A stretch of DNA of 52,550 bases from NCBI GenBank assembly GCA_903911435.1, contig CAIWDF010000054.1, forward strand, positions 1 to 52,550. Reading direction: 5' to 3'. The notes under the pieces were generated by a model. The model was not told where the DNA came from. It ran no database searches and saw nothing but the letters and a program-made list of their open reading frames with translations. The stretch's first letter is position 1. Each line of letters opens with the position of its first letter. This document shows positions 3,110 to 45,576 of the stretch, in pieces. The stretch is from an uncultured Bacteroidota bacterium. Its GTDB lineage: Bacteria; Bacteroidota; Bacteroidia; 2-12-FULL-35-15. A program made the position numbers and the translations under genes.

Positions 3110-6100
3110 ATGAATATATCATCCATAAGCATTAACAGACCGGTACTGGCCATTGTAATGTCGGTGATAATTATTTTATTTGGCTCCATAGGTTACAAAT
3201 ACCTTGGTGTTCGGGAGTATCCTTCCATCGACCCTCCGGTAATTACAGTAAAAACAAACTATTCGGGAGCCAATGCTGATGTTGTGGAATCGCAGATAAC
3301 GGAACCTCTCGAGAAATCGATTAATGGTATAGAAGGAGTACGAACAATTTCTTCTACCAGTGCTCAAGGCAGCAGCACCGTCACTGTCGAATTTAATTTG
3401 GATGCCAACTTAGAAGCAGCAGCCAACGATGTGCGAGATAAAGTTTCGCAAGCTGTTCGTCAGTTACCTCAAGATATAGATGGTTTGCCTACCGTTACTA
3501 AATCGGATGCAAATTCGGATGCTATTGTTGCGCTTACTTTGCAAAGCGATACCAAGAATCAACTTCAGGTAAGCGATTTTGCAGAAAATGTAATTGCAGA
3601 ACGATTGCAAACTATTCCCGGAGTGAGTACCGTTCAGATTTGGGGGCAAAAGAAATATGCCATGCGTTTGTGGATGGATCCTGCCAAGATGTCGGCTTAT
3701 GGCCTCACACCAATGGATGTAAAACAAGCGCTAGACAGAGAGAATGTGGAATTGCCTTCGGGCAAAGTGGCTGGTGTTACCACCGAACTTACTGTAAACA
3801 CCAAAGCTAAATTCAGAAACGAAGACGAATTCAATAATATGATTATTAAATCGGATGGAAATCTTACCGTTCGATTTAAAGATATCGGAACGGCTACACT
3901 AGGTGCAGAAGCCGAAGAAACCATGCTTCGCCAATCGGGAGTGCCCATGATTGGATTAGGACTGGTTCCTCAGCCGGGAGCTAATTATATTGCTATATCC
4001 GATGAGTTTTACAAACGTGTAGAACAAATAAAAAAGGATTTACCCAAGGATTATAAAATGGGTATAGCCCTCGACAATACTAAATTCATCAAGCGTTCAA
4101 TCTCCGAGGTAAAAGAAACATTGCTGATAGCAATCATTCTCGTAATTCTCATTATCTATTTATTTTTCCGCGATTGGTTGATTGCTTTCCGTCCGCTTAT
4201 CGACATTCCTGTTTCCTTGATTGGTGCCTTCTTCATCATGTACTTGATGGGGTATTCCATTAATGTATTGACATTGCTTGCCATTGTGCTCGCCACCGGA
4301 CTTGTGGTGGATGATGGTATTGTGGTAACTGAAAACATCTTTAAAAAGGTGGAAGCTGGTATGAGTCCTATTGAAGCGGCTCATAAAGGTTCTAAAGAAA
4401 TTTACTTTGCCGTTATTTCTACCTCCATTACATTAGCGGCTGTGTTTATGCCGGTAATATTTCTCGAAGGTTTTGTGGGTAGATTGTTTAGGGAGTTCGG
4501 TGTCGTCTTGGCCGGAGCAGTAATTATTTCAGCCTTTGTATCGCTAACATTGACCCCAATGCTCAATGCAAGGATGATTCGTAAAACACAAAAGAAAAGT
4601 CGTTTTTACGAAATGTCGGAACCATTTTTCGAAAAGATGGTTTCTGGTTACGACTCCATGTTGGCTCGTTTCATGACCAAACGTGGGTGGGCATTTGTTA
4701 TCGTAGGTTTATGTACAGGATTTATATTTCTTGTAAACAAATTTCTTCCTTCCGAACTATCTCCACTAGAAGACCGCAGTTGGATTAGAATTGCTGTAAC
4801 TGCTCCCGAAGGTTCATCGTATGAATATACGGATGGCTTTATGCAAAAACTGGCTTATTTTGGAAATGATTCTATCCCTGAAAAGAAAATCTTTCTTACT
4901 GTAACTGCTCCCGGCTTCACAGGCTCCGGTGCGGTAAACACAGGTATGGTACGTTTGGTTTTAAGCGAACCAAACGAACGAAAACGTTCGCAACAAATGA
5001 TAGCGGATTACATCACAAAAAAGACAAAGAAGTTTCCTGAAGCAAAATCATTCGTATTGCAGGAACAAACTATTTCATCGAGCAGTGGAGCCAGAGGAGG
5101 TTTGCCTGTTCAGTTTGTTTTGCAAGCTCCCAACTTCGAAAAACTGAAAGAAAAGCTTCCATTGTTTCTGGAAGAAGCAAACAAAAGCAAGGTATTTCAA
5201 ACGGTTGACGTAAATTTAAAATTCAACAAACCCGAACTTAATATTTCCATTGACCGAGATAAAGCTAAAGCAATCGGTGTTTCGGCCAATGATATTGCTT
5301 CCACGTTGCAACTTGCATTAAGCGGTCAGCGCTTCAGTTATTTTAATATGAATGGTAAGCAGTATCAAGTTAGAGGGCAGCTTACACGCAACGACAGGGA
5401 TGAACCCATGGATTTAAAATCGCTATATGTGAAAAATAATAAAGGCGAACTTATACAATTGGATAATGTGGTGAAGATGGAAGAGCAAAGTAGTCCACCA
5501 CAAATTTATCATTACAATCGTTATCAGTCGGCCACAGTCTCGGCAGCTCCAGTTCCTGGTAAAACTATTGGAGATGGCATAAAAGAGATGCAACGCATAG
5601 GCGATAAAATTTTGGACGATTCATTTTCTACTGCTCTTACCGGTGCTTCTCGCGACTTCTCCGAAAGTTCTTCGAATATCTTATTTGCATTTTTATTGGC
5701 ATTGGTAATTATCTATTTGGTATTAGCTGCACAGTTCGAAAGTTTCATCGACCCTCTTACCATTATGCTTACCGTACCATTGGCGCTTTGCGGAGCATTG
5801 CTTTCGTTATGGTATTTCAATCAAACATTAAATATTTTCAGCGAAATTGGCATTATCATGTTGATAGGCTTGGTTACGAAGAATGGAATTCTGATTGTGG
5901 AATTTGCCAATCAACTTAAAGAACAAGGTAAATCGGTACGCGAAGCCATACAACAAGCTTCGGCAGCCCGTTTGCGTCCTATCTTAATGACTAGTATTGC
6001 TACTGCACTTGGTGCATTACCCATAGCATTGGCATTAGGAGGAAGTGGCAAGAGCCGCATGGGAATGGGAATTGTAGTGGTAGGCGGCATCTTGTTTTCG

Positions 6101-33671: not shown

Positions 33672-33679
33672 AACAGAAA

Positions 33680-33698
33680 ACCCTACATAAAGTAGGGT
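33680..33698. terminator. Small hairpin after glyS
   Basis: ACCCTAC-ATAAA-GTAGGGT, a 7-bp perfect stem. No clear U-tract, so termination is uncertain. Confidence 0.35.
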
Positions 33699-33728
33699 CG
33701 TCTGCTCTCTAACTAAACACAAAACAAT

Positions 33729-34703: not shown

Positions 34704-34730
34704 AAGACGTAAATTTCATAAATGGTTGCC
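34704..34730 (-). promoter_or_regulatory. Candidate ECF-sigma promoter of the PorP/SprF gene
   Basis: On the minus strand GGCAACC (34724-34730) is followed after exactly 14 bp by CGTCTT (34704-34709), 27 bp before the ATG at 34676. The same pair with the same spacing precedes the ECF sigma gene (36063-36089). Flanking positions (AGGTGT after the -10) are also shared. Confidence 0.7.
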
Positions 34731-34787
34731 CGTTAAATTAAAAAAATCTTTGAAATTTAGAGGTTTTTTTAAGAAAGAAAGAATAAA

Positions 34788-35465
34788 TTATTGGTTCGGA
34801 GTCAACTTTAACGAGTCACTTTGCTGCTTATTTTTAAGTCTTAAACTGTCTGGATTGATAAACTTATTCCACCCAATAGGGCTTTCTGAGTGAATCACAG
34901 CAGATTTTTTTGTTGCTTCCTTTTCCTTTGTAGCTCCTATAATCCCTTTTGCAGAATCGAGCATATCGCCAAAAACCGGTTCATTTCCCATTATTAAAAT
35001 TTGAGTAGGCTTTTTAATGTTGACATTTACATCTTTCTGTATACTTTCGTTTTTCAAAGAAGTATGTGATATAAACTTTGCTGACTTCGATTCGTTTTCT
35101 AAAGAGGCAGCATTTGTCACTTCTGGCATTTCATTAGGAGCAGAAGACTCGATCAAGGTTCCCTCAACTTTCGGAATCGTTAAAGTTGAATTTTTTTCCA
35201 ATAATTTTGTTGGCTCAATAACATCCTTCTTTTCATTCAATTTGGAATAAGAAAGGGAATCGTACATAAAATAAGCACCGCCAACTATAATAATACCGAG
35301 CAAAGCGCTGAAAAGATAATTCCATTTAAAGGTGTTCGCTCTTGGTGCTGAATCCAGCATTTCTTCCATGCGTGACCAATCGACAACACTATTTGTTGCT
35401 TTATAATTACTCAACGATTGTTTGATTTTTTTGTCAAGTTTATTGTTGTTAGAAGTGTTAGCCAT
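34788..35465 (-). CDS. Putative anti-sigma factor (membrane protein)
   Basis: A 225-residue protein of unknown family. The cytoplasmic N-terminus (1-52) includes a helical part VDWSRMEEMLDS that could bind a sigma factor. One TM helix follows (YLFSALLGIIIVGGAYFMYD, about 50-70). The rest is an unstructured, Ser/Lys/Glu-rich periplasmic region. It overlaps the ECF sigma gene by 8 bp (35458-35465), the classical sigma/anti-sigma arrangement, and this is the main reason for the call. I do not see FecR or zinc-binding (HxxxCxxC) motifs. It may sense an envelope signal for the sigma factor. Confidence 0.6.
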   Translation of the reverse strand: MANTSNNNKLDKKIKQSLSNYKATNSVVDWSRMEEMLDSAPRANTFKWNYLFSALLGIIIVGGAYFMYDSLSYSKLNEKKDVIEPTKLLEKNSTLTIPKVEGTLIESSAPNEMPEVTNAASLENESKSAKFISHTSLKNESIQKDVNVNIKKPTQILIMGNEPVFGDMLDSAKGIIGATKEKEATKKSAVIHSESPIGWNKFINPDSLRLKNKQQSDSLKLTPNQ

Positions 35466-36018
35466 TGTCAGTTTTGATTAAATGGATTAAATTTTTTCTT
35501 AAATTATATTTCGCTTTCGAGAGATTTGACTTAGATGTTCCTTCACTAATATCAAGCATTTCTGCAATTTCCTTATGTGTATATTCTTCAAGAACATATA
35601 AGTTAAACACCGTTCGATAAGCAGGCGTTAATTGTTGAACTGCTTTTAATATCTCTTCTTTATCAATTTGTAATACAAGCTCTTCATCAGTTATTTCATC
35701 TGCTATCTCTAAAACCGTATCATCAGCATAAACAGTGCTTACTATTAAATAATTGTGCTTATTCTTTCGCACTTTATCTAATGCCGAGTTGACCATTATT
35801 CTTTTTATCCAAGCTTCTAAAGTTCCAGTTTGATTGAACCTGTTAAGATTAACAAAAACCTTTAAAAATCCTTCAAGCACAATGTCTTTTGCTTCTGTTT
35901 CAGAATTTGCATATCTTAAACAAACACCAAACATCTGATCGTAATAGAATTCAAAGAGAACTTTTTGGCTCCCTCTGTCGTTTCTTAAACAACCTTTAAT
36001 TATTTCACTTTCATTCAT
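35458..36018 (-). CDS. ECF-family RNA polymerase sigma factor
   Basis: A 186-residue ECF sigma factor. Region 2 shows EIIKGCLRNDRGSQKVLFEF then VCLRYANSETEAKDIVLEGF (about 5-55) and RIMVNSALDKVRKNK. Region 4 shows LTPAYRTVFNLYVLEEYTHK and IAEMLDISEGTSKSNLSKAK with the HTH. I chose the ATG at 36018; a GTG nine codons earlier is possible but directly abuts a purine-rich GGAG. The promoter pair at 36063-36089 matches the one before PorP/SprF, so it is probably autoregulated. It overlaps the putative anti-sigma gene by 8 bp. It resembles the type of sigma factor linked to T9SS genes in other Bacteroidota, but orthology to SigP is not claimed. Confidence 0.92.
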   Translation of the reverse strand: MNESEIIKGCLRNDRGSQKVLFEFYYDQMFGVCLRYANSETEAKDIVLEGFLKVFVNLNRFNQTGTLEAWIKRIMVNSALDKVRKNKHNYLIVSTVYADDTVLEIADEITDEELVLQIDKEEILKAVQQLTPAYRTVFNLYVLEEYTHKEIAEMLDISEGTSKSNLSKAKYNLRKNLIHLIKTDNG

Positions 36019-36062
36019 GGTGTAGCATAGACCTTTCGCAAACACCTCCGTTTTACACCTTA

Positions 36063-36089
36063 AAGACGTAAAATTTCCAGAAGGTTGCC
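36063..36089 (-). promoter_or_regulatory. Candidate ECF-sigma promoter of the sigma gene
   Basis: Minus-strand GGCAACC (36083-36089), 14 bp, CGTCTT (36063-36068), then AAGGTGT, 44 bp before the ATG at 36018. It matches the motif before PorP/SprF in sequence and spacing. Confidence 0.7.
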
Positions 36090-40501: not shown

Positions 40502-43500
40502 CTATTTTGTAATTGTCACTTTTTGAGTTGTGCTGGACTTATCATTTTTTATTGAAACAAAATAACAACCATTTGCTTCTGACGAAAGATTGATAATTTG
40601 TTTTCCTCCAATAGCAACCTCTTTGTTCATCACAAGTTTTCCAATCACATTATAAACTGAAATGGAAGTATTCGTTGCATTACCCAAATCGAGAATGAAA
40701 GTTCCATCAGTTGAAGGATTTGGATAAATAGACACATTTTGTTCTGCTATAATATTGTCGATACCCACATAAACAAAGTTATAATCAGCAGATACAGCCG
40801 AACACCCGGATGCATTGGTCACCATAACGGTGTAGATACCCGATTGAGACACGGTTTCTGATTGATTTGTGCCTAGTGCAGTTGTTCCATAAAACCATTG
40901 ATAAGATGCAAATGTACCAGTGCTTAACACATTCGCTACAGCGCTAACAATTGGTGTAGGTGCTGGGTTCACAACTAATAACAAAGTGTCGCTATCAACT
41001 GTTTGAGCGGTAGTACAACCTAAACTACTAGTCAATTCGCAATATACTTGATAAGTTCCTGGAGGTATTGTTCCCGCTGGTACAAATAATGTTTGGCCTG
41101 TACCTACAGGACCCATATTTACGACATTCCAAACGTATGTTGGAGTGGTCCCATCATTTATTCCTGTTGCATGACCTGTTACATCCATATTTGCACATAT
41201 TGTCATAGAAGTAGGAATAGTAACACTTGGTGTAACAGGAGCTGAAGATGTAAGAATAGCAACATTAGAAGTTGTGGTTCCAAAGCTATTTGAAATTACA
41301 CAGTGATATATGTATCCAGAAAGGCCAGTAGTATTTAATATTCTCAAGGTATCGGTATCTACACCAGCATACACACTCGAATTGCTTATTGCTACGTAGC
41401 CCGATCCATTATCTTCTTCCCATTGATACGAAACCGCATCAGTAGCACCTACTATAAACATTGCTGTGCTACCATCACAAACTGAAGCATCGATTGGTTG
41501 AGAAGTGATTGCTGGTGAACCATCGAAATAAAAATCAGCCGAAACAGCTGTACATCCGAACGAATTACTCACATCAACAGAATAAGTTCCAGTTTGAGTT
41601 GCTGTTTCAGATTGGGTTGTTCCCATTGCAGCTGCTCCTAGGTACCATTGATAAGTATCGTAGGTAGACGTACTCAACACATTTGCAAGTGCCGAAACAA
41701 TTGGTATTGTTGGTGCAGGATTCACTACCAATAACATGGTATCACTATCAACTGTTTGTATTGTGGTACATCCTAAACTGCTTGTTAATTCGCAATACAC
41801 CTGATAACTTCCGACAGGAATTGTACCTGCAGGTACAAATAATGTTTGTCCAGTACCACCTGGTCCCATGCCTACCACATACCAAACATATGTTGGAGTA
41901 GCACCATCATTTAATCCTGTTGCAGTGCCAGTAACATCCATATTTTCGCAAATAGTTAACGAAGTTGGAATGCTTACACTTGGAGTAACTGGTGCCGACT
42001 CAGTTAATACAACTGAATTAGAAACTGTTGTTCCAAAACTATTAGTGATTACGCAATGATAAACATATCCTGACATGCCAGTTGAATTCAAAACGTTTAA
42101 CGTTTCGGTATCTACACCAGAATAAAAACTTGAATTGCTTATTGCAACAAATCCTGTTCCGTTATCTTCTTCCCATTGATAGGTTATCGCGTCAGTAGCA
42201 TTCAAAGTAAATACTGCTTGTGCTCCTGAACAAACTGAAGCATCTATAGGTTGAGTATTAATTATAGGAGAACCATCGAAAGAATAATTAGCTGACATGG
42301 CTGTGCAACCGAATGAATTACCAACTTGAACTGAATAAATTCCTGTTGAAGTAACTGTTTCTGATTGGTTAGTTCCTAAAGGACTTGCACCAAAATACCA
42401 TTGATAGGTATCGTTGGAGGAAGTGCTCAACACATTTGCAACAGCAGTTATCACTGGTATTGCTGGGGCAGGATTCACTATTACAGTCATGGTGTCGCTA
42501 TCAACTGTTTGCACAGTAACACAAGTTTCTGATACTGTTAATTCGCAATAAACTGAGTAGGTTCCAGGAATAATAGTTCCAGCAGGTATATAAAGTGATG
42601 GTCCATTTCCAACAGGACCTAAATTAATAACATTCCAAGTATAAGTTGGTGAAGCTCCATCATTGACTCCAGTGGCTACTCCCAAAACATCGTTGCCAGC
42701 GCAAAGTGTTAAAGAAGGAGGTATAGTAACACTTGGTGTAACAGGAGCATTGACAGTTAGTGTGGCGGATAATGTAGTTGCATTACCGTATCCATTGGTA
42801 ACAACACAGTGGTAAACATATCCTGTCATACCTGTAGTGTTCAAAATGATTAGTGAATCAGTATCCACCCCACTATAAACACTCGAATTACTTAGTGCAA
42901 CAAAACCAGTTCCATTGTCTTCTTCCCATTGATACGAAACCGCATTGCTAGCCACTGCAGAGAAGATAGCTGAACTCCCTTCACAAACAGAAAGGTTTTG
43001 AGGGTCACTGACAACAACAGGAAGCAAGGAAGTCGCATATCCTAATATATTTACATTATCTATACTAAATGTTCCAGTATTTGCTTCAGAATTCCATGCA
43101 TAAAATCGAAAAGTGATAGGTGTAGTAAGGTTACTAAAACTGCCTCCTGTTAATATTATCAAACTACCATTTTGGTTAGTACTAACATCTGCTGTTACGA
43201 AAAATTCATTCGTTCCTTCTATGCTTAAATTAGCATTTGCTGGTGATATCGCATTGGCAATATTCGAAGTAAAACCATCAACACTTGAACGAACTATATA
43301 AGAACGAATTCCTGTGCCTGAACGCCTTACAGAGAAACCAATCGTATCTAAGGATAATGAGTAACCTGCATCTGGGGAAAACGTAACTTCATAATATTCT
43401 GCTGTATCCATAGAACCTGTCATTTGAGAATACAAGGTATTTCCACTAACCGAACCTGCTGGCCAATTTGTAAAATTAAAACGACCTACTGTTCCTGTAG

Positions 43501-43690
43501 CAGGATTTGAAGGAGTGCCAATTGCAGAAAAACTTCCAAAAGTTACCCCCGTAGCTGTTGGAACAAAACTTGGATCGGTAGTGCCCGATGTGGTTTTTAC
43601 ACTATCAAAAGTGTAAGTAACATTAACTATTTGAGCGTTTAAACAAAAAGTTGAAATTGCAAACGCAATTAATAAAGTAATTTTTTTCAT
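40502..43690 (-). CDS. T9SS-secreted modular adhesin-like protein (three repeat modules)
   Basis: A 1062-residue secreted protein. The ATG at 43690 starts a clear signal peptide (MKKITLLIAFAISTFCLNA); the promoter at 43714-43721 excludes the earlier start. An N-terminal domain (about 20-220) is followed by three modules of about 250 residues. Each has Ig-like blocks marked by YQWEEDNGxGFVA, then VDxDxLxIxNTTG and YVYHCVVTN, then a PVTPSVTIPxSLTxC segment and an AVANVLST-type segment. A type A sorting domain ends it (VSIYPNPSTDGTFILDLG ... NGCYFVSIK). Compared with its paralog at 43856 it has two extra modules. Cys pairs per module may form disulfides. The ligand is unknown. Confidence 0.88.
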   Translation of the reverse strand: MKKITLLIAFAISTFCLNAQIVNVTYTFDSVKTTSGTTDPSFVPTATGVTFGSFSAIGTPSNPATGTVGRFNFTNWPAGSVSGNTLYSQMTGSMDTAEYYEVTFSPDAGYSLSLDTIGFSVRRSGTGIRSYIVRSSVDGFTSNIANAISPANANLSIEGTNEFFVTADVSTNQNGSLIILTGGSFSNLTTPITFRFYAWNSEANTGTFSIDNVNILGYATSLLPVVVSDPQNLSVCEGSSAIFSAVASNAVSYQWEEDNGTGFVALSNSSVYSGVDTDSLIILNTTGMTGYVYHCVVTNGYGNATTLSATLTVNAPVTPSVTIPPSLTLCAGNDVLGVATGVNDGASPTYTWNVINLGPVGNGPSLYIPAGTIIPGTYSVYCELTVSETCVTVQTVDSDTMTVIVNPAPAIPVITAVANVLSTSSNDTYQWYFGASPLGTNQSETVTSTGIYSVQVGNSFGCTAMSANYSFDGSPIINTQPIDASVCSGAQAVFTLNATDAITYQWEEDNGTGFVAISNSSFYSGVDTETLNVLNSTGMSGYVYHCVITNSFGTTVSNSVVLTESAPVTPSVSIPTSLTICENMDVTGTATGLNDGATPTYVWYVVGMGPGGTGQTLFVPAGTIPVGSYQVYCELTSSLGCTTIQTVDSDTMLLVVNPAPTIPIVSALANVLSTSTYDTYQWYLGAAAMGTTQSETATQTGTYSVDVSNSFGCTAVSADFYFDGSPAITSQPIDASVCDGSTAMFIVGATDAVSYQWEEDNGSGYVAISNSSVYAGVDTDTLRILNTTGLSGYIYHCVISNSFGTTTSNVAILTSSAPVTPSVTIPTSMTICANMDVTGHATGINDGTTPTYVWNVVNMGPVGTGQTLFVPAGTIPPGTYQVYCELTSSLGCTTAQTVDSDTLLLVVNPAPTPIVSAVANVLSTGTFASYQWFYGTTALGTNQSETVSQSGIYTVMVTNASGCSAVSADYNFVYVGIDNIIAEQNVSIYPNPSTDGTFILDLGNATNTSISVYNVIGKLVMNKEVAIGGKQIINLSSEANGCYFVSIKNDKSSTTQKVTITK
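40750..43010 (-). repeat. Three in-gene tandem modules of about 752-755 bp
   Basis: The SYQWEEDNG-coding block recurs at about 41410, 42162 and 42917, spacings of about 752 and 755 bp. The modules lie inside the coding frame of the long adhesin-like gene. Confidence 0.75.
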
Positions 43691-43713
43691 TTTAATGTGT
43701 TTTAAGATTTCCA

Positions 43714-43721
43714 CAAAAGTA
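43714..43721 (-). promoter_or_regulatory. -7 promoter element (TACTTTTG) of the long adhesin-like gene
   Basis: Minus-strand TACTTTTG, 23 bp before the chosen ATG at 43690. It overlaps the earlier in-frame start and so rules it out. Confidence 0.55.
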
Positions 43722-43798
43722 AGAATATTTGTGTAACAAAATTTATTTGTAGTTCATTTCAATTTAATTGATTTTTAAGAACGAATTAGTAAAAACAA

Positions 43799-43826
43799 AA
43801 ACGTCTCGCAATTTTGCGAGACGTTT
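43799..43826 (-). terminator. Terminator of the short T9SS adhesin-like gene
   Basis: A near-perfect 13-bp stem (AAACGTCTCGCAA / TTGCGAGACGTTT, 2-nt loop) followed on the minus strand by a T-rich tract. Confidence 0.75.
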
Positions 43827-43855
43827 CGTAATATATAACTGATTGGATTGGATGT

Positions 43856-45544
43856 TTATTTCGCAATCGTAATTTTATGTGTTGTATTCCCTTTATTGTT
43901 TTTTACAGAAATAAAATAAGAACCATTGGCACGTGAAGCTAGGTTGAGTGCATGCTTTCCGCCTGTTGCTATTTCTTCGCTCATTACTACTTTCCCAACA
44001 ATATCAAAAACAGTAATTGAAGTGGTGCTTGAAGTAGTGCCTAAATCAATTACAAATAAACCATCCGTTGAAGGATTAGGATAAACAGAAACAAATGAAT
44101 TAGAAGAAGCCTCATTGATTCCAACAAATACGAAGTTGTAATCAGCGGAAACAGCAGTACATCCAAATGTATTAGCCACCGATACGGTGTAGATACCCGA
44201 TTGATATACTGTATCCGATTGGTTGGTTCCTAATGCTGTTGTTCCATAATACCATTGATAAGTATCGTAAACATTGGTGCTTAGAATATTTGTAGTTTCG
44301 GTAATCACAGGAACTATTGGAGCTGGATTTACTACCAAGGTTAAGGTATCGCTATCAACAGTTTGAACGGTGGTACAACCCTCGCTACTTGTTAACTCGC
44401 AATAAACCTGATAAGTACTTGGAGGTATTGTACCTGCTGGAACAAACAATGATTGAGTAGAACCTACAGGTCCTAAGCCAATAAGATACCATGTAAACGA
44501 TGGTGTAGCTCCTTGGTTCACAGCAACAGCTGATCCTGCTAAATCGGTATTTGCACAAATGGTTAATGAAGTTGGTATGGTTACACTTGGAGTTACCGGA
44601 TTAGATTCTGTTAATAATGCAGCATAAGAAGTAGTACTTCCTGCTCCGTTTGTAACTACACAGTGATAATGATATCCTGATAGACCTGAAGTGTTTGAAA
44701 TTATTAAGGTATCATTATCAACACCTGAATAAACACCTGCATTAGATAATGCAACAAAACCAGTTCCGTTATCTTCTTCCCATTGATAGGTAGCAGCATT
44801 TGTTGCACCCACAATGAAAGTAGCAGTGCCACCAAAACAAGAGGTAACATCAGTTGGGTCGGTAATGATGATTGGAGCTGCTGAAGCGGCTAAACCAACA
44901 AATCTTACATTGTCAATACTAAATGTTCCTGTATTTGCTTCAGAATTCCATGCATAAAAACGAAAACTAATAGGGTTAGTAAGGCTACTGAAACTGCCCC
45001 CTGTTAATATTATCAAACTACCATTTTGGTTAGTACTAACATCTGCTGTTACGAAAAACTCATTCGTTCCTTCTATGCTTAAATTAGCATTTGCTGGTGA
45101 TATCGCATTGGCAATATTCGAAGTAAAACCATCAACACTTGAACGAACTACATAAGAACGAATTCCTGTGCCTGAACGCCTTACAGAGAAACCAATCGTA
45201 TCTAAGGATAATGAGTAACCTGCATCTGGGGAAAGAGTAACTTCATAATATTGTGTATCCGCTATAGCTCCCGTCATTTGAGAATAAAGTGTATTGCCAT
45301 TAGCTGAACCTGCTGGCCAATTGGTATAATTAAAACGACCTATTGTTCCAGTAGCAGGATTAGAAGGAGTGCCTATTGCAGAAAAACTTCCAAAAGTTAC
45401 CCCTGTAGCTGTTGGAACAAAACTTGGATCGGTAGTGCCCGATGTGGTTTTTACACTATCAAAAGTGTAAGTAACGTTAAACGATTGCGCGTTTAGGAAA
45501 AATGTTGAAATTGCGAAAGCAACTAATAAAGTAATTTTTTTCAT
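43856..45544 (-). CDS. T9SS-secreted modular adhesin-like protein (one repeat module)
   Basis: A 562-residue paralog of the protein encoded at 40502. The ATG at 45544 starts a signal peptide (MKKITLLVAFAISTFFLNA). The N-terminal domain (about 20-220) is nearly identical to the paralog's, even at many silent sites. It is followed by a single ~250-residue Ig-like module (YQWEEDNGTGFVALSNAGVY ... PVTPSVTIPTSLTICAN) and a type A sorting domain (VSVYPNPSTDGLFVIDLG ... NGSYFISVK). It lies directly upstream of the long copy and has its own promoter (45569-45576) and terminator. The length difference from the paralog equals two modules. Confidence 0.87.
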   Translation of the reverse strand: MKKITLLVAFAISTFFLNAQSFNVTYTFDSVKTTSGTTDPSFVPTATGVTFGSFSAIGTPSNPATGTIGRFNYTNWPAGSANGNTLYSQMTGAIADTQYYEVTLSPDAGYSLSLDTIGFSVRRSGTGIRSYVVRSSVDGFTSNIANAISPANANLSIEGTNEFFVTADVSTNQNGSLIILTGGSFSSLTNPISFRFYAWNSEANTGTFSIDNVRFVGLAASAAPIIITDPTDVTSCFGGTATFIVGATNAATYQWEEDNGTGFVALSNAGVYSGVDNDTLIISNTSGLSGYHYHCVVTNGAGSTTSYAALLTESNPVTPSVTIPTSLTICANTDLAGSAVAVNQGATPSFTWYLIGLGPVGSTQSLFVPAGTIPPSTYQVYCELTSSEGCTTVQTVDSDTLTLVVNPAPIVPVITETTNILSTNVYDTYQWYYGTTALGTNQSDTVYQSGIYTVSVANTFGCTAVSADYNFVFVGINEASSNSFVSVYPNPSTDGLFVIDLGTTSSTTSITVFDIVGKVVMSEEIATGGKHALNLASRANGSYFISVKNNKGNTTHKITIAK

Positions 45545-45568
45545 GGTTTTTATTTTATATTTATTGAG

Positions 45569-45576
45569 CAAAAGTA
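45569..45576 (-). promoter_or_regulatory. -7 promoter element (TACTTTTG) of the short adhesin-like gene
   Basis: Minus-strand TACTTTTG fits TAnnTTTG, 24 bp before the ATG at 45544 and overlapping an earlier in-frame start. Confidence 0.55.

Follow-up and report, generated by a model that had tools for sequence, protein, structure and literature searches.

Most knowledge of how T9SS hardware and cargo are coordinated in the Bacteroidota comes from P. gingivalis and a single pathogen of fish. In P. gingivalis, porP is among the T9SS genes under the control of the ECF sigma factor SigP (PGN_0274), part of the PorXY-SigP cascade, and SigP also binds the promoter of ruvA, which lies upstream of the SprA ortholog gene sov (PMC4800418, PMC8265659). 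In F. psychrophilum, the ECF-type motif SM6, with a CGT −10 box, is located before an ECF sigma/anti-sigma pair and before gldN and porU, and a putative regulatory RNA is expressed from one of the SM6 promoters (PMC9723704). Furthermore, secretion or anchoring of type B CTD adhesins requires PorP/SprF proteins (PMC12618676, PMC9143113). Here we analyze a stretch of 52,550 nucleotides from an uncultured Bacteroidota bacterium (hereinafter, the window) within its genome (G000; 4,191,965 bases in 312 contigs). We estimate at about 0.88 the probability that a motif found in this window, GGCAACC-N14-CGTC, is the −35/−10 promoter of the adjacent ECF sigma factor, which would drive its own operon, a PorP/SprF gene, and two giant genes on other contigs (C15 and C277).

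In the order of transcription, the locus consists of a promoter, the ECF sigma gene, a gene for a 225-aa membrane protein, a second promoter, PorP/SprF, and terminator-like hairpins (Table 1). The sigma factor comprises region 2 (PF04542) and region 4 (PF08281) only, the ECF architecture of about 190 aa, and scores 100 bits with the sigma70-ECF model TIGR02937 (cut-off 42.9); its scores with NF058625 (GFO_1088/PG0214 ECF; 82 bits) and TIGR02985 (Sig70_bacteroi1; 91 bits) are below the curated cut-offs of 130 and 126, respectively. Because the orthologs align from MNExEIIKGC, we take the ATG at 36018, rather than the upstream GTG at 36045, to be the start codon. The predicted promoter ends 45 bp before this ATG and, as judged from the sequence and footprinting, carries the ECF hallmark, an AAC-type −35 element combined with a CGT-type −10 element. 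The PorP/SprF protein, one of 13 such matches in the genome, exceeds the cut-offs of both PF11751 and TIGR03519, and its ATG follows the end of the second promoter by 28 bp.

Table 1. Features of the sigma-PorP/SprF locus (window coordinates)
Feature	Position	Strand	Evidence or remark
Sigma gene promoter, ECF-type (predicted)	36063..36089	-	exact match; ortholog conservation; R2 E=9.2e-6
−35 GGCAACC of sigma promoter	36083-36089	-	14-bp spacer to −10
−10 CGTC(TT) of sigma promoter	36063-36068	-	predicted transcription start ~7 bp further on
ECF sigma factor, 186 aa, ATG at 36018	35458..36018	-	Sigma70_r2, Sigma70_r4_2; TIGR02937
Putative anti-sigma factor, 225 aa	34788..35465	-	alignment A3; hhalign; overlaps sigma gene
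PorP/SprF promoter, ECF-type (predicted)	34704..34730	-	exact match; syntenic conservation; R2 E=4.1e-5
−35 GGCAACC of PorP/SprF promoter	34724-34730	-	14-bp spacer
−10 CGTC(TT) of PorP/SprF promoter	34704-34709	-	
PorP/SprF-family T9SS outer-membrane protein, 315 aa	33729..34676	-	PF11751 223 bits, TIGR03519 259 bits
Terminator-like hairpin 3' of PorP/SprF	33679..33699	-	consensus scan only

The original prediction, that the motif precedes both the sigma gene and PorP/SprF with identical spacing and occurs nowhere else in the window, is borne out. The full motif, GGCAACC-N14-CGTCTT, is present in two exact copies, both on the minus strand, and a scan of the window tolerating up to two mismatches, at which 0.65 matches are expected, detected no other match; these are also the only exact copies in the entire genome. 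The final TT is not invariant, and the spacer is 14 bp in the clade of this genome and 15 bp in most relatives. Genome-wide scans, performed with patterns and with sequence-only models, showed that the motif is not frequent away from promoters: the core GGCAACC-N14-CGTC appears only four times in 4.19 Mb (twice on the window's contig, C54, and at C15:7066 and C277:3457), each time upstream of a gene, compared with one match for the reversed control pattern. Looser patterns, with two mismatches or a variable gap, matched the genome no more often than their reversed controls, and we claim no targets from these. The sequence-only model R2, built on 24 sites from other genomes with the sites of this genome left out, ranked the four core sites first (E from 9.2e-6 to 2.2e-4) and additionally yielded one weak site, on contig C190.

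The comparison with relatives also bears on whether the two window sites might be mere look-alikes, arising by chance or through duplication of a short promoter region, as their number and their partly similar flanks could suggest. A search of the 150 bp before the sigma gene found the strict form GGCAAC[C/G]-N14/15-CGTC in 24 of 24 orthologs with at least 62% identity (0.0 expected from shuffled upstream regions) and a relaxed form in all 36 orthologs with 45-55% identity, mostly from Crocinitomicaceae and other Flavobacteriales. A second site is located before PorP in each of the 22 loci that keep the sigma-partner-PorP order. Such conservation at a fixed distance in dozens of genomes from several families, in sequences that have otherwise diverged, refutes chance and duplication, an explanation to which we assign a negligible probability. 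Some sites in the relatives fall inside coding sequence or face no gene. The same footprint scan found no motif upstream of 32 more distant sigma factors or of six orthologs with 59-61% identity that form one subclade (L126-L131, from G002, G008, G018, G028, G022 and G023). In this subclade, the partner gene is kept and the promoter motif is lost, no PorP match was found in the flanking sequence examined, and promoter specificity may have changed.

In the tree of the sigma factors, the motif-bearing clade, with N14 or N15 promoters, has a support of 0.976, and the N14 spacer appears to be derived, being confined to a small clade to which this genome belongs, with N15 in the rest; G050, a genome left out of the tree, also has N14. 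In the N14 clade, the sigma and PorP promoters are all N14. Strict co-variation of the two spacers was considered and rejected, given that 4 of 17 loci outside this clade combine N15 before sigma with N14 before PorP. A Fisher test of the spacer association gave p = 0.005, a value that is based on an earlier count of 19 loci and takes no account of phylogeny.

A different possibility is that these sites are operators of a non-sigma regulator of the same genes, such as a PorX-like response regulator. PorX also binds T9SS genes in P. gingivalis (PMC8265659), and an inverted half-site accompanies some of the sites; however, the inverted half-site is absent from both window sites and from those on C15 and C277. 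Moreover, an ECF promoter fits the fixed spacing of 14-15 bp, the CGTC −10 element, the proximity of the start codon and the association with an ECF gene, and a CGT −10 box has been read as an ECF signature (PMC9723704). We therefore regard an operator as very unlikely. The reading of the motif as the probable promoter of the adjacent sigma factor, and hence of autoregulation and control of PorP/SprF, as originally predicted, is strongly supported by the rarity of the motif, footprinting and the R2 ranking, and the last step, recognition by this sigma factor, is one that we infer.

Beyond the sigma gene and PorP/SprF, the positions of the sites suggest that the likely regulon extends to giant surface proteins and, as far as relatives are concerned, to SprA. 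The site at C15:7066 precedes genes for a 138-aa secreted protein and a protein of at least 2780 aa with CHU_C-associated Ig_7 and GEVED domains, and the site at C277:3457 precedes the gene for a secreted protein of at least 1029 aa with an N-terminus resembling that of the C15 protein; both giant reading frames run off the contig ends, so that these lengths are lower bounds and any C-terminal signals would lie beyond the contigs. Upstream of the C277 giant gene, there are seemingly tandem sites, an N16-like one with one mismatch (3594-3622) and the N14 one (3457-3481). In G004, the motif precedes a large PKD/CHU_C cargo gene, and in G050, which belongs to another family, it is found before the sigma gene, before two SprB-repeat/CHU_C type B cargo genes, and before a third large secreted open reading frame. 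In ten relatives of the genus (G001, G010, G027, G029, G003, G006, G009, G011, G014 and G016), the motif is located just upstream of ruvA-sprA (T9SS translocon), where ruvA is followed by an SprA of roughly 2400 aa, identified by synteny and matching sequence ends; the G029 contig ends after ruvA, and the G001 sequence also ends early. In the genome analyzed here, SprA (TIGR04189, 2623 bits) was rejected as a target, its ruvA-sprA operon being devoid of a site. The window itself also encodes, on the minus strand at 40502-45571, two adjacent paralogous large secreted proteins of 1070 and 571 aa that end in T9SS type A sorting-like tails; the motif was not found upstream of these genes.

Fifteen matches to sigma region 4 in the genome exceed the cut-off, and one of these paralogs appears to use nearly the same half-sites. 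This second ECF sigma factor, at C277:11475 (minus strand), has TGCAACC-N16-CGTCTA in a promoter-like site upstream (C277:11492-11520, locus L063), and TGCAACC-N16-C(A/G)TC occurs about 50 bp upstream of its orthologs in 8 of 9 relatives. In this genome, the N16 pattern with at most one mismatch has 21 matches, compared with 9 for the control, and many of these precede genes for giant secreted proteins, two of which have type A sorting domains. The promoter type TGCAACC-N16-C(A/G)TCTA was also noticed on C145, C149, C180, C196, C221 and other contigs. It is thus conceivable that the motif is indeed a promoter, but one read by a different ECF sigma factor or by several, with the adjacent sigma factor as one member of an overlapping network; the SM6 motif of F. 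psychrophilum is likewise possibly common to several ECF factors (PMC9723704). However, N14 and N15 track the clade of the sigma factor studied here, N16 tracks the C277-type sigma factors, mixing of the two was not seen, and the sampled loci best matching the C68 or C194 ECF types have neither kind of site upstream. Autoregulatory sites that follow the clade of a sigma factor point to that sigma factor, and we consider the network explanation unlikely. The two sigma factors, whose sites have near-identical halves but spacers of different length, appear to serve distinct T9SS-related gene sets, each presumably by recognizing its own sites, and spacer length may be what separates these two T9SS-cargo regulons.

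Both site types meet at C190:30678-30734 (L286), where GGCAACC-N14/15-CGTC overlaps, face to face, a site like TGCAACC-N16-C(A/G)TC on the opposite strand, an arrangement kept in three groups of orthologous loci (L277, L281, L289, L290, L291, L293, L294, L296 and L305). The N14/15 side is often free of open reading frames for several hundred bases, and in L281 and L296 a terminator-like hairpin is found about 110-140 nt downstream of the N14/15 site. It is possible that small RNAs are driven from this side.

The gene between the two promoters likely encodes an anti-sigma factor. Its product shows the layout of membrane anti-sigma factors: a gene beside that of the sigma factor, a single transmembrane helix (~48-77), and a conserved N-terminal segment of ~45 aa, IKxSL...DWxxMExMLD, presumably cytoplasmic, followed beyond the helix by a disordered, presumably periplasmic tail with a conserved GNEPxFGDMLDSxKG. 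No Pfam or NCBIfam model matched, so that no known anti-sigma domain was recognized, and the structural model, in which two short helices accompany the long transmembrane helix, has a mean pLDDT of 55.9, a low confidence that precluded a fold search. Profile comparison (hhalign E=2.4e-12) shows homology of the N-terminus and transmembrane region with the corresponding parts of the partners encoded in Crocinitomicaceae-type operons. The remainder of those partners resembles PKD and CHU_C, with CHU_C matches in 3 of the 14 members aligned. One of these three, the G050 partner (32.8 bits), and the partner of the paralogous C277 sigma factor (57.6 bits) score above the CHU_C cut-off of 27 bits. 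Partners combining an anti-sigma-like N-terminus, a transmembrane helix and periplasmic PKD and CHU_C domains were observed at L063:9911-10939 (minus strand) and L310:1592-2806 (alignment A4). A constant cytoplasmic end joined to exchanged periplasmic domains is the expected appearance of an anti-sigma factor with varying sensors, and we infer that the partner binds the sigma factor.

Taken together, these observations, all of them drawn from sequence, suggest a model in which the sigma factor transcribes its own operon, encoding itself and the single-helix anti-sigma factor, from GGCAACC-N14-CGTC, and from the same promoter type transcribes the neighboring PorP/SprF gene and the two giant surface-protein genes on C15 and C277. 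Under this model, the membrane partner would hold the sigma factor until a signal from the envelope or secretion released it, and the freed sigma factor would then amplify itself together with the secretion and adhesin set. Since type B cargo of the T9SS is shuttled or anchored by PorP/SprF proteins, such a regulon would produce secretion hardware and surface proteins together. A more speculative extension, which we offer tentatively and consider doubtful as a whole, is that the partner senses the state of secretion: in other families and in the C277 operon, its periplasmic PKD and CHU_C-like T9SS signal would be tethered to the inner membrane, and engagement of this domain by the T9SS or a PorP/SprF shuttle would free the sigma factor according to secretion capacity, with feedback on shuttle, translocon and cargo. 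On this view, the two paralogous sigma factors, one with spacers of 14/15 bp and the other of 16 bp, would govern regulons that work in parallel and are insulated from each other. In a literature search, none of the papers listed contained a phrase on an anti-sigma factor with a type B sorting domain.

The locus offers a precise consensus for the proposed promoter, a sigma factor and putative anti-sigma factor preceded by a motif of their own, a list of candidate targets that is conserved in several families (PorP/SprF, SprA in relatives, and large surface proteins), and a natural pair of paralogous sigma factors with promoters that differ mainly in spacer length. A text search found no paper linking GGCAAC with ECF and Bacteroidetes. 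By its description in the literature, SigP is comparable to the proposed regulon in the genes concerned: here porP carries a site, and ruvA-sprA does so in ten relatives though not in this genome. However, SigP is under the control of the response regulator PorX, the term "anti-sigma" is absent from PMC4800418 and PMC8265659, and the motif proposed for SigP, C(T)AAA(G/C/T)A(T)A(C)T(A/G)A, is unlike GGCAACC-N14/15-CGTC, whereas the sigma factor described here is encoded together with a membrane partner and is preceded by a motif of its own. With SM6, the locus shares the CGT −10 element, which is the part of the motif that was compared, an ECF sigma factor paired with an anti-sigma factor (a putative one here) and T9SS genes, but the published selection of SM6 genes includes no PorP/SprF, SprA or giant adhesin (PMC9723704). 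As in the known pairs of PorP/SprF with type B cargo, PorP/SprF here shares its promoter type with large surface proteins; given that type B cargo needs PorP/SprF, such co-expression makes sense. The published pairs are often genetically linked, whereas here the genes are unlinked and would be joined by the proposed sigma regulon. Among known systems, SigP of P. gingivalis and SM6 of F. psychrophilum come closest; the one described here is of the same kind but differs in its promoter, in its partner and, in part, in its targets.
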